This document shows, in pieces, positions 42,361 through 49,681 of a stretch of DNA of 64,000 bases (position 1 is the stretch's first letter; each line of letters opens with the position of its first letter). Source of the stretch: Pseudoalteromonas piscicida (lineage in GTDB: Bacteria; Pseudomonadota; Gammaproteobacteria; Enterobacterales; Alteromonadaceae); contig NZ_CP021646.1 in the NCBI RefSeq assembly GCF_002208135.1, positions 1,595,501 to 1,659,500 of the forward strand. Reading direction: 5' to 3'. The notes beneath the pieces are model-generated. The model did not search any database and was not told the DNA's origin. It saw only the letters and a list, made by a program, of their open reading frames with translations. The translations under genes and the position numbers were made by a program.

Positions 42361-44077
42361 TTACTGAGACTCGACAAATGCATCAAGCTCACTTTCCATT
42401 TGCTCTCGCATTTTGAACTTTTGCAGTTTGCCTGTGACCGTCATCGGATAATTTTCAACGAGCTTGATGTGTTTTGGCACTTTGAAGTAGGCGAGCTTAT
42501 CTTTTAAAAATACACGAATATCATCTTCCGAAATATAGTGTCCGGGTTTAAGTTGAACCCAAACACATACTTCCTCACCATATTTTTCGTCCTTGATCCC
42601 AAAGACGGCGGCATCTTGAATATCGTTATGATGATAAAGCACTTCCTCAATTTCTCGGGGTAAATATTCTCACCACCGCGAATGATCATATCTTTTATAC
42701 GGCCGACAATGCTGACGAACCCTTCGTCGTCCATCACGCCTAAATCGCCAGAATGTAGCCAGCCATCGTCATCAATGGTTGCTGCTGTTTTTTCTGGGTC
42801 TTGCCAATAGCCTTTCATGACGCAATACCCACGAGCACATACTTCACCTGGTGTACCGATAGGTGCGATATGTCCAAGCTCGTCAATAATTTTGACCTCG
42901 GTATGTGGCATAGCGCGACCAACAGTCTGCACGCGTTTCTCTACAGGCGAATTGATTTCGGTAATATTGTTGATTGGGCTGCACTCGGTTTGCCCGTAAC
43001 CAATGAGTACATCGGTCATATGCATTTGTGTTTGTACTTGGCGCATGACTTTTTCGGGGCAGGTGGAACCTGCCATCACGCCTGTGCGCAATGAAGATAA
43101 ATCAAACTGCGTAAAGTCTGAGTGTTCTAATTGCGCAATAAACATAGTTGGCACGCCATGAAGCCCTGTACATTTTTCTTGTTCGACAACTTGTAAAGTA
43201 ACAAGCGGATCAAAGCTATCGTTAGGGAACACAGCGCACGCCCTTTACTGATACAAACGAGATTACCGAGCACCATGCCAAAACAATGATAAAGCGGCAC
43301 GGGAATACAAAGCTTGTCTCGCTCTGTGAGCTTCATTGCGTTGGCGACCAGTAATCCGTTATTTAGGATATTGCTGTGGGTGAGGGTGGCGCCTTTAGGG
43401 TTGCCTGTGGTCCCAGAAGTAAATTGAATATTGATAGCATCACTGGCACTGAGATTGGCCGCAATCGCATTTGCCTCAAGATAGTGTGCCTCATTTGCTT
43501 TAGACAACAAGGCGCTAAAATTCATCAGGCCTGGCTCAACATCGTCGTCAATCAGCACAATCTGCTTGAGCGAGGGAAGGCGCTGTGAGGACAATTCGCC
43601 AAACATGCAGCCATAAGATTCTGGTGCCAGCTCTCTTATCATGTCAACGTAATGGCTATGTTTAAAAGATTTCGCCATGACTAACATTTTACATTCAACG
43701 TTGTTTAGCACGTATTCAAGCTCGCTTGGGCGATAGGCGGGGTTAATGCACACCATGATTGCGCCAATTTTAGCGGTTGCAAATTGCACTAGACTCCATT
43801 CAAGATTGTTTGGAGACCAAATCCCAACTCTATCCCCTGGTTGTATGCCCACAGCTAAAAGGCTTGCGGCAAGTTGATTTATTTTTGCGAGATACTCACG
43901 ATAATTTAAGCGAACTGACTGATGAGAGACAACAATGGCTTCTCTTTCCGGATAATTGTCGACAATATCTTCTAGATATTGCCCTATGGTGAGTTGAGTT
44001 AGGGGTTCTCCTTGTGGGCCCTTGAAGTAACTTTTTGTCAGTGCATTTGCATTTAATACTTGGCTCTCTGTTGTCAT
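42361..44077 (-). pseudogene. Fatty acyl-CoA synthetase-type AMP-binding protein, two frameshifts
   Basis: AMP-forming acyl-CoA ligase of about 570 residues when repaired, split into three frames. The start MTTESQVLN at 44077 has AAGGA upstream. Piece 1 holds INIQFTSGTTGNPKGATLTH (ATP loop). Piece 2 holds GYGQTECSPINN, DDDGWLHSGDLGVMDDEG and GRIKDMIIRGGENIYP. Piece 3 has the C-terminal catalytic region with MTVTGKLQKFKMRE (Lys). The first break is at a GGG run near 43241 (one more G gives KGACAVFPNDSFD). The second is at a C4 run near 42657 (one more C gives NIYPREIEEVLYHH). Both repairs are exact family matches. The substrate is probably a medium or long acyl chain. Confidence 0.85.
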
Positions 44078-44252
44078 ATCTTGTCCTTGCTGTTGATCTC
44101 TAGTTGTTATCATTATGCTTTACCAGTGATAACCTAATTGTCGACAAAATCAAGTGTAATTGGACGAAAAGCATGAAATTAAGACTAATGGATAGTGATA
44201 AAGTGTGTGATGGCGAAGTAGTGGAAAGGCGGAGAGCAGCTTTAATTGATAT

Positions 44253-44304: not shown

Positions 44305-47300
44305 TTAAGCTAACCCTTCATCTGTATCGACATGCTCATCTTTATGATGCCTAGCGATTTCATCTGAAAGTTCTTGCTTAGAACGCTTCTCTGACATACG
44401 TCTTGCCATTAACCAATAGAAGAACAGCGGCAAGAAGAATACTGCGAGGAAGGTAGCCGAGAGCATACCACCCATAACACCAGTACCTACACTGTGCCTT
44501 GCTCCTGCACCAGCTCCAGAACTCATAACCAGTGGAACTACGCCAAGTATGAAAGCAAGTGAAGTCATGATAATAGGTCTAAAACGCAGTCTTGCCGCTT
44601 CAAGGGCTGCGGTTGCTGGACTCCAACCTTCTTGATACTTCATTAGCGCATATTCGACAATAAGAATGGCGTTCTTACTGGCAAGGCCGAGTAGAGTAAC
44701 CAAACCGATTTGGAAGTACACATCGTTGGTTAGTCCCGCAATCCAGATTGAGACCAGTGCACCGAAAGTACCAAACGGCAGTGCCAACATAACCGAGAAT
44801 GGCAATGACCAGCGCTCGTACAGTGCTGCGAGGATCAAAAATACCATGATCACGGCCATACCAAGTGCAATACCAGTTGTGCCAGAGTTTTGCTTTTCTT
44901 GAAACGCGGAACCTGTCCACTCGTAAGTCATATCTGGTGGTAGCACTTTGTTGGCGATACGCTCAAACTCCGCGATAGCTTGGCCGGAGCTGTAGCCAGG
45001 TGCTGCTTCGCCCATTAGCTTAACTGCAGATAAGTTATTGTAACGATTCATGGTTTCTGGGCCCCGACTATACTCAACATCCGTAAATGCAGAAATTGGT
45101 ACCATTTCGCCACGATTGTTTTTCACATAAATGCGTCCCACATCTTCCGGCGTCATTCTAAACTCGGCTTCTGCAGACATAATCACTTGCCATGCCCGAC
45201 CAAACTTATTGAAGTCATTGACGTAGTAATTACCTAAATTAGCCGCAAGTGCATTAAACGCAGAGTTGATATTGACCCCCATGGCACGCGCTTGCTCTCG
45301 ATCCATATGCACCTTTAGCTGTGGAGCATCAGGACGCCACAGCGTTTGAATACCGGTAAGAATAGGGCTCTTCTGCGCTTCGGCCATGATCATCTGCATG
45401 CCTTGCTTTAATTTAGCAGGATCGGAGCCGCCTTTATTTTGCAAGAAGACTTCAAACCCGCCTGTCGTGCCCAAGCCGAAAATTGGCGGTGGGTTAAACG
45501 CCAGCACAAGCGCTTCGTTGATATGCGCGGTTTTCATAAACAGCTCACCAACCAGTTCTTTCGCTGACACATCACGTTGATCCCAATGTGTTTGCGTCAC
45601 GAACATAGTGGCCGCGCTATTTTTGAAGCCACCACCGATGAAGTCCATCCCCGTAAACGACACGACGTTTTCGTTTGCTGGATTTGATTTCGCAGCGGCA
45701 ATCACTTCATCTGCCACTTTAGCGGTGCGCTCTAATGACGACCCATCTGGTAAGAACACTGCAATCATGTAGTAACCTTGGTCTTCGTCTGGTACTAAAG
45801 AGCTTGGCGTTTTTTGCCACAGGAATACCGTCGCACCAATCATCGCTACCATCAGTGTTAGGCCTACAAGACCACGGCGAACCATAAAGCTAACCGCACC
45901 AACATAGCGTCCAGTTACACGATGGAACCAGTCATTGAACCACAAGAAAAACTTGGCATCTTGTTTGTGCTCGTGCTTAAGCAGCAATACACACAGTGCA
46001 GGCGTCATCGTCAGTGCAACCACACCGGATAAACTTACAGAGATGGAGATAGTGATCGCAAATTGGCGGAATAGCTCGCCTGTTAACCCACCTAGGAAAG
46101 CGATAGGTACAAACACCGAACACAATACCAATACAATCGCGACAACGGGGCCGCTGACTTCTTGCATCGCTTTAACCGCCGCTTCTCTAGCCTGCAAGCC
46201 TTGCTCATGCATAATACGTTCGACGTTCTCAAGTACCACGATGGCGTCATCTACCACGATACCAATCGATAATACCATGCCAAACAGTGTCAGCGTGTTA
46301 ATTGAATAACCGAGCATATACAGACCTGCAAATGTACCGAGTAAAGAGACGGGTACAGCAAGCGTTGGAATGAGCGTTGCACGCCAGTTTTGCAAGAATA
46401 GGTAAACTACTAAGAATACCAAGATCATTGCTTCACCAAGCGTTTTTAACACCTCTCGAATTGATACTTCTACAAAGCGCGTGGTGTCGTAGGAATTAAC
46501 GTGAGCAAGACCAGTAGGGAACTGAGGTTTGATCTGTTCAATTTCAGCTTCTACAGCTTTGGCTACATCTAGCGCATTCGCGCCCGGTTGCAGGAAGACA
46601 CCGAGTAATACGGCTTCCTTACCGTTAATGGTACCTTGGAAGTTATAGTCTTTAGAGCCAAGTTCTACGCGAGCAACATCCTTAAGGCGCAGTGTTGAGC
46701 CATCTGGGTTTGCACGAACAATAATATTTTCGAACTCTTCAGCCGTCGATAAACGTCCTTTTGCGGTGACACTATAAACTAGCGATTGCGCGTCTTGAGA
46801 AGTCGGTGTCGCACCAATACTACCCGCTGCATACTGAGAGTTTTGCTCTCTGATCGCACCTGCTATATCGTCTGCTGTGACTTGTAGTTGACTCATAATA
46901 TCAGGACGCAACCAAATACGCATGGCGTAGTCTTTAGCACCGAAGATTTGCACGTTAGTCGTGCCAGGAATACGCTTGACGCGATCGAGAATATTCATGG
47001 TGACATAGTTAGATGTCCAGAGGCTATCTCGTGTCCCATCTGGCGAATAGAACGCGTGGACTTGCAAGAAGTTAGAAGATGTTTTTTGAACCACCACGCC
47101 TTGGCGTCTAGTTTCTTCAGGGAGACGCGCTTCTACTTGCTTCACCCGGTTGTTTACATCTACAGCAGCCTGATCAACATCCGTTCCAATCTCAAAAGTA
47201 ACCGCGATAGTTGTTACGCCCGAGTTAGTACTGGTTGATGTCATATACATCATGCCTTCAACACCGGTAATCGCGTTCTCGATAGGGGTTGCAACGGTTT

Positions 47301-47478
47301 GTTCCAATACATCCGCAGATGCACCAGGATATACCGCACGTACCTCAACTTGAGGTGGCGCAATTTCGGGATACTGTGCGACAGGTAAACTGCGCATTGC
47401 CGCAAGGCCCGCGAGCACAATCACGATAGAGATAACAAAGGCGAAAATAGGCCTGTTTATAAAATATTTGGAGAACAT
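44305..47478 (-). CDS. RND multidrug efflux pump inner-membrane transporter (AcrB/MexB type, HAE1)
   Basis: Proton-driven trimeric exporter of hydrophobic or amphiphilic compounds. The 1057 residues fit the family. The N-terminus MFSKYFINRPIFAFVISIVI, FLQNWRATLIPTLAVPVSLLG and the TM4 motif GIVVDDAIVVLENVERIM with the paired Asp of the proton relay (about 408) are visible. Two large periplasmic porter domains and twelve helices are present, with a charged C-terminus. Co-transcribed with the adaptor (4 bp gap). No outer-membrane factor is encoded nearby, so it likely borrows a TolC homologue. Confidence 0.96.
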   Translation of the reverse strand: MFSKYFINRPIFAFVISIVIVLAGLAAMRSLPVAQYPEIAPPQVEVRAVYPGASADVLEQTVATPIENAITGVEGMMYMTSTSTNSGVTTIAVTFEIGTDVDQAAVDVNNRVKQVEARLPEETRRQGVVVQKTSSNFLQVHAFYSPDGTRDSLWTSNYVTMNILDRVKRIPGTTNVQIFGAKDYAMRIWLRPDIMSQLQVTADDIAGAIREQNSQYAAGSIGATPTSQDAQSLVYSVTAKGRLSTAEEFENIIVRANPDGSTLRLKDVARVELGSKDYNFQGTINGKEAVLLGVFLQPGANALDVAKAVEAEIEQIKPQFPTGLAHVNSYDTTRFVEVSIREVLKTLGEAMILVFLVVYLFLQNWRATLIPTLAVPVSLLGTFAGLYMLGYSINTLTLFGMVLSIGIVVDDAIVVLENVERIMHEQGLQAREAAVKAMQEVSGPVVAIVLVLCSVFVPIAFLGGLTGELFRQFAITISISVSLSGVVALTMTPALCVLLLKHEHKQDAKFFLWFNDWFHRVTGRYVGAVSFMVRRGLVGLTLMVAMIGATVFLWQKTPSSLVPDEDQGYYMIAVFLPDGSSLERTAKVADEVIAAAKSNPANENVVSFTGMDFIGGGFKNSAATMFVTQTHWDQRDVSAKELVGELFMKTAHINEALVLAFNPPPIFGLGTTGGFEVFLQNKGGSDPAKLKQGMQMIMAEAQKSPILTGIQTLWRPDAPQLKVHMDREQARAMGVNINSAFNALAANLGNYYVNDFNKFGRAWQVIMSAEAEFRMTPEDVGRIYVKNNRGEMVPISAFTDVEYSRGPETMNRYNNLSAVKLMGEAAPGYSSGQAIAEFERIANKVLPPDMTYEWTGSAFQEKQNSGTTGIALGMAVIMVFLILAALYERWSLPFSVMLALPFGTFGALVSIWIAGLTNDVYFQIGLVTLLGLASKNAILIVEYALMKYQEGWSPATAALEAARLRFRPIIMTSLAFILGVVPLVMSSGAGAGARHSVGTGVMGGMLSATFLAVFFLPLFFYWLMARRMSEKRSKQELSDEIARHHKDEHVDTDEGLA

Positions 47479-47482
47479 CAGA

Positions 47483-48661
47483 TTATTCTCCTTGCTCGCT
47501 CACAGACACCGGCATTCCTGGGAAGAAGATCCTCGCCATTCCTTCAACAATGACAGGTTGTCCTTCTTTTAAGCCTTCGCGAATAACCCACATATTCTCA
47601 TTATTAAGCTTGACCCATTCACCAACTTTGACCGGTGCGGGTAGGGCAACGGTTGCACCTTGTTCATTTTCGGTGGCAATGTACACAAATTTACCTGTAC
47701 CGTTGTCTAGTACCGCTCTTTGCGGAACTACAATGGCGTTATTACGTACTGCACCAGAGAGCTTAACTCGGACAAACTGACCAGGTCTTAGCTCGCCGTT
47801 TTCGTTAGGAATACGTGCTTGTAATTCACTAGTACCTGTGAAGCGGTTTACACGAACGTCGCTAAAGTTTACTTTACCGACTTGTCCATATAGTGAACCG
47901 TCTTGCAGAATAATCGTGGTATCAAATTCATTATGAGCTGGTAATGACAATGAGCCGTTTTCTACATCTTGGCGCATTGTTAGTTGCTCACGCTCTGAAA
48001 AGCCAAATCGAGCACGAATAGTGCTGATGTCGGTAAGCTCAGTTAAAAGCACACTGGGACCTGAAACATAACTGCCTTCAGACATCAACTCACGCCCCAC
48101 AATGCCTGAAACCGGCGCTTCAACTTTGGCATATTCCAGGTCCAGCTTGGCTTCACTCAATGCTACTTTCGCAGATTCTAAATTCGCAACCGCAATGTCG
48201 TAGGCAGATACTGAATTATCAAAGTCGCGTTTTGATACTGAACGCTCGTTTTTCAAGCGCTCAAGCCGCTCACTTTCGCGCTTAGTTTGATCAACGTTTG
48301 CTTTTGCTGCTTGAAGTGCTGCTTGTGCTTTATCTACCGCTAATTCAAAAGGCTTAAGCTCGATAGTAAATAGTGAATGACCAGCTTTCACAAACTGACC
48401 TTCCTCAAAGTTGCGAGATTCGATAATCCCAGAAACTCGAGAGCGAATTTCTACTTCTTTATCACCCGCGAGCGTTGCCGGAAGTTCGATATCGAATGGC
48501 ACTGATTGAGTAGTTACTTGTTGCACACTCACTTGTGCAGGTGGCATTGCATGGCCGCCTTGCTGTGGTGCTTCTGAACACGCTGACAAAGTGCCTAGCG
48601 TGAGCATTAAAAAAGATAGGTGTTTAACACGACTGCGTATTGATGCTGGATACATGAACAC
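47483..48661 (-). CDS. RND efflux periplasmic adaptor (AcrA/MexA type lipoprotein-like)
   Basis: Membrane-fusion protein for the adjacent RND pump. The 392 residues have an N-terminal hydrophobic signal with LGTLSACSEAPQQ, a lipobox-like LSAC (Cys about 28). The split lipoyl domain, a short alpha-hairpin (about 105-170), a beta-barrel and a membrane-proximal domain follow. Motifs include RVSGIIESRNFEEGQFVKAG and KVEAPVSGIVGRELMSEGSY. It begins the minus-strand operon and is divergent from the tetR gene. Three operator-like palindromes lie in the 417-bp gap. Confidence 0.93.
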   Translation of the reverse strand: MFMYPASIRSRVKHLSFLMLTLGTLSACSEAPQQGGHAMPPAQVSVQQVTTQSVPFDIELPATLAGDKEVEIRSRVSGIIESRNFEEGQFVKAGHSLFTIELKPFELAVDKAQAALQAAKANVDQTKRESERLERLKNERSVSKRDFDNSVSAYDIAVANLESAKVALSEAKLDLEYAKVEAPVSGIVGRELMSEGSYVSGPSVLLTELTDISTIRARFGFSEREQLTMRQDVENGSLSLPAHNEFDTTIILQDGSLYGQVGKVNFSDVRVNRFTGTSELQARIPNENGELRPGQFVRVKLSGAVRNNAIVVPQRAVLDNGTGKFVYIATENEQGATVALPAPVKVGEWVKLNNENMWVIREGLKEGQPVIVEGMARIFFPGMPVSVSEQGE

Positions 48662-48823
48662 TCCAATTCCTATATTATCATTTTATGCTGCCCCGGCTTT
48701 AGCGGGGAACTACCTTGCAATTTGCCTTTAATAACGCACACTCGACTGGATGCAATCAGACAAGCGACTTCATTTCATACCTTAACCACACCAAAGTAAA
48801 GGCAATTTGTTCGACAATTAAAC

Positions 48824-48845
48824 AAGTAAACGGTAGTGTATACTT
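48824..48845. promoter_or_regulatory. TetR operator-like palindrome 1
   Basis: Imperfect 22-bp inverted repeat with arms AAGTAAAC and GTATACTT. First of three sites with the same form at exact 33-bp intervals. Confidence 0.75.
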
Positions 48846-48856
48846 AAAGAAATAAA

Positions 48857-48878
48857 AGGTAAACGGTTGCGTGTACTT
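48857..48878. promoter_or_regulatory. TetR operator-like palindrome 2
   Basis: Imperfect 22-bp inverted repeat with arms AGGTAAAC and GTGTACTT. Starts 33 bp after palindrome 1. Confidence 0.75.
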
Positions 48879-48889
48879 TTCTTAAATTT

Positions 48890-48911
48890 AGGTATACGAT
48901 CATGTGTACTT
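48890..48911. promoter_or_regulatory. TetR operator-like palindrome 3
   Basis: Imperfect 22-bp inverted repeat with arms AGGTATAC and GTGTACTT. Starts 33 bp after palindrome 2 and lies 168 bp before the tetR ATG. Confidence 0.75.
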
Positions 48912-49078
48912 TTTATTAACGACTTTATTGATTAAAATAAAGGGAATGTTGATTTATTACGAAGAGGACTTATCTCTAAATAACATAGAGAAATCGTTCT
49001 TGGTATGCAACTGACCATGTGAGTAGCAGCTATCGATGGCTCGCTATTCCCACCATTAATTAAAGACAGAATAAGTAG

Positions 49079-49681
49079 ATGACGCAACTTTCACCAAAAC
49101 AGCAGTCAATTTTATGTGCAGCGATAGAAGAGTTCGCTCAAAAAGGCTTGCAGGCGACGACGATGGAGTCGATCAGTCAATCTGCGGAGGTATCTAAGCG
49201 CACGTTATACAAACATTACTCGACCAAAGACGAGCTCTTTGATGCCGTTGTTGAGCTGTTAATTGAGCGGATTAAGCCGATAACTGCTATACAATTTATC
49301 CCAAACTATGACTTTTCAGTGCAACTGCAGCACCTTGCGAAAAGTGCAATGACTTTGTTGAATGACGAGGATTACATGCGTTTGTCGCGCATTGTGATGA
49401 TTGAATCAATGCGCAGTTTTGAGCAAGCACAGAACCTAAATGAGAAGTTTAGTCACTGTGAGGCCGCGATGATCCAATGGTTCGAAGATGCGGCGAATTC
49501 GGGGTGCCTTGGTAGTTTTGATGCGGATTTTTCCGCGGCGTACTTCTGGGGAGCGCTGAAAAAGCTAGGCTATTGGGAGCGCGCGATAAAATGGCAAGCT
49601 CCACTTCCAGAAGCAGAGCTTGATATCTTGGTTGAAAAGGCGGTAGCGCTATTTTGTAATGGCGTTACTCAACACCAATAA
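49079..49681 (+). CDS. TetR/AcrR-family regulator, likely repressor of the RND pump
   Basis: A 200-residue protein. The N-terminal HTH is TMESISQSAEVSKRTLYKHY (about 28-47), preceded by ILCAAIEEFAQKGLQATT. The C-terminal ligand domain resembles the AcrR C-terminal form (YFWGALKKLGYWERAIKW near the end). It is divergent from the RND adaptor and pump genes, the standard layout for a local repressor relieved by a pump substrate. Its 3' end overlaps the convergent ABC exporter gene by 17 bp. Confidence 0.9.
   Translation: MTQLSPKQQSILCAAIEEFAQKGLQATTMESISQSAEVSKRTLYKHYSTKDELFDAVVELLIERIKPITAIQFIPNYDFSVQLQHLAKSAMTLLNDEDYMRLSRIVMIESMRSFEQAQNLNEKFSHCEAAMIQWFEDAANSGCLGSFDADFSAAYFWGALKKLGYWERAIKWQAPLPEAELDILVEKAVALFCNGVTQHQ

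Follow-up and report, generated by a model that had tools for sequence, protein, structure and literature searches.

The window, the whole 64,000-nucleotide stretch of Pseudoalteromonas piscicida DNA that was analysed, contains two genes of an efflux pump on the minus strand and a gene for a TetR-family regulator on the plus strand. The intergenic region between them carries three 22-bp palindromes, O1, O2 and O3, together with candidate promoter elements. The genes are located as follows:

44305-47478, minus strand: RND (HAE1) pump permease (NF000282, 1397.5 bits, cut-off 1250; TIGR00915, 1264.8 bits, cut-off 940)
47483-48655, minus strand: RND pump periplasmic adaptor (TIGR01730, 239.8 bits, cut-off 94.9)
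49079-49681, plus strand: tetR, AefR-like TetR-family regulator of 200 aa (PF00440 and PF14246 above cut-off; best relative by sequence PDB 3cdl, AefR)

The sequence-only reading had described a pump and its regulator diverging from the sites, and this arrangement was confirmed, with the pump genes on the minus strand and tetR on the plus strand. It had also spoken of AcrR-type regulators, a loose label here. The N-terminal helix-turn-helix matches PF00440 with 58.1 bits (cut-off 24) and the C-terminal domain matches the AefR-like PF14246 with 56.8 bits (cut-off 22), whereas the AcrR model NF007949 reaches 36 bits against a cut-off of 271. The adaptor and permease models both assign the pump to the RND (HAE1) efflux type, and the pump operon lacks an outer-membrane gene. 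A 13-nt inverted repeat (48718-48730 and 48797-48809, 92% complementary, 66 nt apart) is present in the pump leader, and a terminator-like hairpin lies on the plus strand at 48702-48718. No Rfam family was matched between 48600 and 49100. Beyond the permease, an AMP-binding (acyl-CoA ligase) gene at 42504-44113 is split into two overlapping frames (42504-43232 and 43127-44113), as if interrupted.

The palindromes are unstranded candidate operators:

48824-48845, no strand: O1 (site 1), AAGTAAACGGTAGTGTATACTT, candidate operator scoring 13-16 of 16 in 57/57 orthologous loci
48857-48878, no strand: O2 (site 2), AGGTAAACGGTTGCGTGTACTT, candidate operator scoring 14-16 of 16 in 57/57 orthologous loci
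48890-48911, no strand: O3 (site 3), AGGTATACGATCATGTGTACTT, derived candidate operator, present in 32/57 loci and gained once on the tree

The claim of three palindromes starting at 48824, 48857 and 48890 was borne out both by the coordinates and by shuffle tests. In the window, the start-to-start spacing is 33 bp from O1 to O2 as well as from O2 to O3, which leaves a gap of 11 bp between neighbouring 22-bp palindromes. Within a palindrome, 7 (O1), 6 (O2) and 6 (O3) of the 8 arm positions pair, and between the three sites the arms are identical at 13-15 of 16 positions. A consensus-free search for three similar palindromes with an equal spacing of 28-39 bp found one triple in the 423-bp intergenic region and none in 3000 mononucleotide shuffles; the triple pattern is beyond chance. 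The consensus ARGTAHAC-N6-GTDTACYT, which was derived from O1-O3 themselves, has three perfect matches in the window, every one at O1-O3. When up to two mismatches were allowed, six matches were found compared to 0.50 expected, with a maximum of three in 100 dinucleotide-preserving shuffles. Five perfect matches occur in the window's own genome; a backwards control pattern gave five perfect matches in total in 108 genomes of the genus, one each in five of them. Because the consensus came from O1-O3, the conservation tests outweigh these match counts.

Orthologues of the regulator were detected in 57 of the 108 Pseudoalteromonas genomes searched (E up to 3.5e-52; 45-100% identity), with the next matches at E 7e-25 or weaker, and all 57 loci were examined. 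Conservation of the sites, their co-occurrence with TetR and their spacing can be read directly from these genomes. The adaptor gene is divergent from tetR in 57/57 loci. A search for homologous tetR/pump pairs lacking the sites returned none, as each of the 57 pairs carries at least two. In this respect the palindromes behave as predicted for operators of the adjacent TetR. The spacing between O1 and O2 is 33 bp in 56 loci and 32 bp in one. On the tetR side, a third site scores at least 13 in 32 of the 57 loci and at most 11 in the remaining 25; among shuffled flanks, about 0.2% reach a score of at least 13. O2 and O3 are 33 bp apart in 21 of the three-site loci and 32 bp apart in 11, and O3 is perfect in 11/11 loci of the window's clade. 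Alignment of relatives, which had been proposed as a check on number, form and spacing, thus upheld the 33-bp distance between O1 and O2; three as a kept number did not survive it (25/57 loci have two sites, and 4/4 Bowmanella loci have one). The arrangement expected of an autoregulated divergent TetR/pump locus, with operators conserved together with the pair, was found in all 57 pairs. These comparisons point to a locus type that is already known, in which a TetR putatively represses both its own gene and an RND pump.

Candidate promoter elements were located from sequence at and beside the palindromes:

48835-48840, minus strand: candidate pump -10, TACACT, inside O1 (TACACT in 56/57 loci, TAGACT in 1/57)
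48858-48863, minus strand: candidate pump -35, TTTACC, inside O2 (TTTACC in 44, TATACC in 12 and TTTACT in 1 of 57 loci)
48910-48915, plus strand: weak candidate tetR -35, TTTTTA, over the last 2 bp of O3, with a 17-bp spacer to the candidate -10; inferred from sequence
48933-48938, plus strand: candidate tetR -10, TAAAAT, a conserved TTAAA(A/C)T-type element after the last operator

A sigma-70 scan of 48650-49090 at a threshold of at least 9/12 returned no promoter, and the candidates score about 8/12. The palindromes overlap the conserved candidate pump elements in 57/57 loci, with none of these reaching 9/12 in the scan. The two pump elements are separated by a spacer of 17 bp in 56 loci and of 16 bp in one. 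For the offset scan and the identity figures, 22 near-duplicates were removed from the 57 loci to leave 35 representatives, and in these the chosen placing of -35 and -10 is the best of the scanned offsets (mean 7.74/12, z 3.3). In support of this placing, the centre bases of O1 that fall within the -10 element are invariant in the 35 representatives, and the identity of the centre is 0.84 in O1 versus 0.53 in O2. The 11-bp gap between O1 and O2 keeps its length, while its sequence drifts (identity 0.42). Since O1 and O2 would occupy a -10/-35 pair with a 17-bp spacer, their 33-bp spacing would follow from the promoter. On the other side, 31 of the 32 three-site loci have the TTAAA(A/C)T-type element 20 bp past the last operator, the exception reading TTACAAT (L011); in the sister group with two sites, the distance is 19-21 bp in 11/11 loci. 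Another 14 two-site loci, which are more distantly related, fall outside this count.

The history of the sites was followed on a tree that joins the 57 regulators with eight relatives from outside. Counting the fewest changes, the third site requires one, the spacing between sites 1 and 2 one, the spacing between sites 2 and 3 four, and the tolC site described below one, where the genome with a weak tolC-upstream site (G054) and three unscored genomes were entered as having no tolC site. The branch joining the 32 three-site rows has a support of 92/84 and is not starred. Read from this tree, the two-site pair is the putative old form and the third site a later gain in one branch of the genus. 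The distance from the last operator to the tetR ATG is 57 bp in 21 of the 32 three-site loci and 54-60 bp in 11/11 two-site loci of the sister group. As this distance is alike in both forms, the third site would have arrived with added length, about 33 bp. It thus appears that the third operator was not born inside old sequence and came with roughly one unit more length, and we infer tandem duplication of a 33-bp operator-plus-spacer unit as the simplest account. In the 11 three-site loci of the window's clade, the tetR leader measures 162-348 bp and not 57 bp; this clade has since lengthened the leader, after gaining the third site. In the window the leader spans 48912-49078, and leaders of the clade exceed those of the other three-site loci by about 110 bp.

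To place the motif beside relatives outside the genus, named genomes were scanned with the TetR alignment. The scan kept 80 of 358 relatives, 41 of them from outside Pseudoalteromonas; the remaining 39 kept loci belong to the genus and were left out of the upstream motif scan. Because peptides from the DNA-reading helix went into the scan, this helix is common to the kept relatives by construction. The motif was found upstream with at least 14/16 in 41/41 out-of-genus relatives, paired in 36 of them. The paired sites are spaced by 33 bp in two Psychrosphaera loci, 29 bp in two unclassified gammaproteobacteria, 40-41 bp in 12 Rhodanobacter and Dyella loci, 39-47 bp in 19 Vibrionaceae loci and 39 bp in Parendozoicomonas. 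Single sites occur in four Bowmanella loci and one Lacimicrobium locus. A family-wide rule of 33 bp is ruled out by this range (29, 33, 39-41 and 45-47 bp, with 5/41 loci single-site), and the promoter geometry proposed above does not fit the two relatives with 29-bp spacing (L211, L216). An RND pump is present at only eight of the 41 loci. Six of the non-pump loci were tested for their neighbours, and a divergent metallo-beta-lactamase-fold hydrolase was found at five; the sixth (L219) has neither pump nor hydrolase and carries an aldehyde dehydrogenase upstream. With the motif in 41/41 loci and the pump in eight, the motif seems to travel with the regulator and not with the pump, which argues for the regulator as its constant partner. 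More distant paralogues within Pseudoalteromonas (28-32% identity; six loci) have similar paired sites 39-40 bp apart, with a T after AAGTAAAC, and the single paralogue neighbour tested was again a metallo-beta-lactamase-fold hydrolase.

The adaptor gene is present without a TetR orthologue in 16 genomes. In three of these, both sites remain, 33 bp apart: G011, which retains a 49-aa TetR remnant, has scores of 15 and 15 for O1 and O2, G039 has 13 and 14, and G049 has 14 and 14, hardly below the weakest TetR-positive loci (13 and 16 in one case, 14 and 14 in another). The other 13 genomes (L254, L255, L257-L259, L262-L269) have lost the outer half of O1 and kept the -10 half as well as the 11-bp gap, and their O2 is a perfect palindrome in which the G following the arm is replaced by T. 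Decay of the sites after TetR loss is therefore weaker than hoped, as three of 16 are slightly weakened and 13 of 16 lose half of O1 yet keep O2 perfect. The loss of half of O1 with retention of the -10 half fits the proposed promoter map; an intact O2 would not follow from it. The 13 TetR losses are probably one event. The T beside the arm is the base also found in the sites of the paralogues, and all 13 genomes contain a more distant TetR paralogue elsewhere (one was read). These two findings make a handover to another TetR possible, in which the pump would have passed to the paralogue. Altogether, 15 of 51 TetR-less genomes have at least one perfect motif match, and 13 of these are explained by the pump site; of the other two genomes, G043 has its match within a reading frame, and the second is G064.

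Beyond the pump, the window's genome has another perfect site 171 bp upstream of the start of tolC (C1:2965580-2965601; L080:2581-2602). DNA upstream of tolC was obtained for 57/57 TetR-positive and 33/51 TetR-less genomes, of which three and two, respectively, were unscorable. A tolC site scoring 15-16 is visible in the sequences of 11 of the 54 scorable TetR-positive genomes, which are exactly the window's clade (10 perfect, one 15/16). G054 has a weak site (14/16), and none of the 31 scorable TetR-less genomes has one (best score 13). Control of tolC as a genus-wide trait is ruled out by the same counts. In 11/11 genomes of the clade, the right arm of the site begins a TTTACC-17-TACAAT pair, and the tolC element known from the relatives, TATATTCTGTTACACTT, sits 58-59 bp downstream. 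From this it seems that the window's clade has an extra, repressible tolC promoter, which offers a testable link between pump and tolC in one clade. A wider regulon was also considered and dropped: beyond pump and tolC the sole perfect match in the window's genome is at C1:1046449, and this match is probably due to chance because it lies inside a reading frame. One-mismatch near matches are also present in this genome.

We consider it likely that the locus belongs to a known kind, in which a TetR represses its own gene and a neighbouring RND pump, and that its triple operator is a derived form. O1-O3 would serve as operators for the AefR-like TetR repressor that is encoded divergently from the pump. 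Bound to O1, a dimer would cover the -10 element of the pump, and bound to O2 its -35 element, so that the pump promoter would be shut when O1 and O2 are both filled. O3, which adjoins the candidate -35 of tetR, would contribute repression of the regulator's own gene. The dimers would be freed by an inducer, for which a pump substrate or a metabolite is presumed, and pump and repressor would be induced together. In the older form, two operators would have served, with the inner one beside both promoters. In one Pseudoalteromonas branch, duplication of the 33-bp operator-plus-spacer unit would have given each promoter its own inner operator, and the third operator would thereby separate the tasks of pump and tetR repression. 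In the window's clade, the regulator may also have acquired a site of action at a second promoter of tolC, tying the channel to a pump that has no outer-membrane gene of its own.

The regular spacing could be read differently, as in the sequence-only reading, which had suggested a phased array for cooperative binding, looping or graded control. The three dimers would then share one face of the DNA, touching each other or looping the region, and 33 bp, about three helical turns, would be kept for helical phase. The conservation of 33 bp between O1 and O2 in 56/57 loci, with O2-O3 at 32 or 33 bp, agrees with this, as do the two Psychrosphaera loci at 33 bp. The 17-bp promoter spacer explains the same 33 bp, however, and relatives with the same motif have spacings of 29, 39-41 and 45-47 bp or, at five loci, a single site. 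Moreover, Tn10 tet has a like layout with two operators that overlap promoters, and cooperativity between them is not indicated in the available part of the source (PMC3037858). Promoter geometry appears to be a better explanation of the 33 bp than helical phase. The data give no indication that the sites are phased to allow cooperativity, looping or graded control, and we regard a phased array as improbable.

The perfect pump site in 13 TetR-less genomes suggests that some other protein may use the site there, and on this basis the sites could belong to another regulator common to pump and tetR. The presence of the motif at all 57 TetR-bearing loci and its company with AefR-like TetR in pump-less loci of other families make such an assignment very improbable. 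A role for O1 and O2 as operators, with O3 as a weakly used by-product of duplication without a role of its own, is somewhat less remote, though still unlikely. The arms of O3 vary more than those of O1 and O2 (identity 0.80 versus 0.94 and 0.95 in the same loci), and the left arm is worn in many loci (scores 13-15). Against this, O3 retains at least 13/16 in all 32 loci of its clade, it is perfect throughout the window's own clade, and it stands at a constant distance from the tetR -10 element.

A broader proposal goes beyond this reading and is put forward tentatively, as a possibility that we hold less probable than its contrary. The 22-bp site might be a portable operator-promoter module of the AefR-like TetR subfamily in Gammaproteobacteria, which multiplied as a 33-bp unit at the pump and, in one clade, appeared at an additional tolC promoter. 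In a clade without the regulator, a paralogous TetR might have taken over the pump, accompanied by a single-base change of G to T beside the arm. Since the arm reads as a -35 element (TTTACC), a site copy 17 bp before a -10 element could yield a new repressible promoter.

The operator sequence of Tn10 differs from the 22-bp sites of this locus. Its tetR/tetA arrangement is nevertheless similar in that a pump and a TetR repressor diverge from overlapping promoters and operators, with more than one operator; according to the available part of the source, one of the operators tetO1 and tetO2 acts on both genes and the other mainly on the pump (PMC3037858). Two operators are present there compared to three here, and the pump here is of the RND type with an AefR-type C-terminal domain in the regulator. 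PmeR of Pseudomonas syringae is likewise a TetR-type repressor divergent from an RND operon, mexAB-oprM, with two palindromic sites between them; as far as the accessible text goes, there is overlap between those palindromes, and the name of the operon includes an outer-membrane gene of its own, whereas here the palindromes are 11 bp apart and an outer-membrane gene is lacking (PMC12421961). In QacR-type systems, a pair of TetR-family dimers sits on a single pump promoter, which is comparable to the arrangement proposed here. QacR dimers cooperatively bind overlapping palindromes within 28 bp, as stated in the portion of the source at hand (PMC6018408), whereas the palindromes here are separate. 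Relatives with solved structures were identified by sequence as AefR (PDB 3cdl, 85.6 bits over residues 5-193), which gives PF14246 its name, and NalC (PDB 8ke8, 39.1 bits). In the literature searched, as represented by its available excerpts, we found no AefR operator for a comparison of the DNA code, and neither the operator described here nor any RND pump with a triple TetR operator was reported. A search for 'AAGTAAAC' together with 'TetR' gave nothing related among the matches listed.

What is unusual here is the phylogenetically single third operator together with the clade-specific tolC site. The locus offers a dated, single-origin case of an operator added at a repressor-pump locus, and because the two-site form survives in sister species, the effect of the third operator is measurable between natural relatives. 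It also provides a concrete 22-bp candidate for the DNA code read by a large subgroup of AefR-like TetR regulators, which is found beside pumps and metallo-hydrolases in several families. AefR-like TetR genes of Rhodanobacter, Dyella, Vibrionaceae and Parendozoicomonas (L222-L253) share this putative operator, with the hydrolase as neighbour where tested (five loci).
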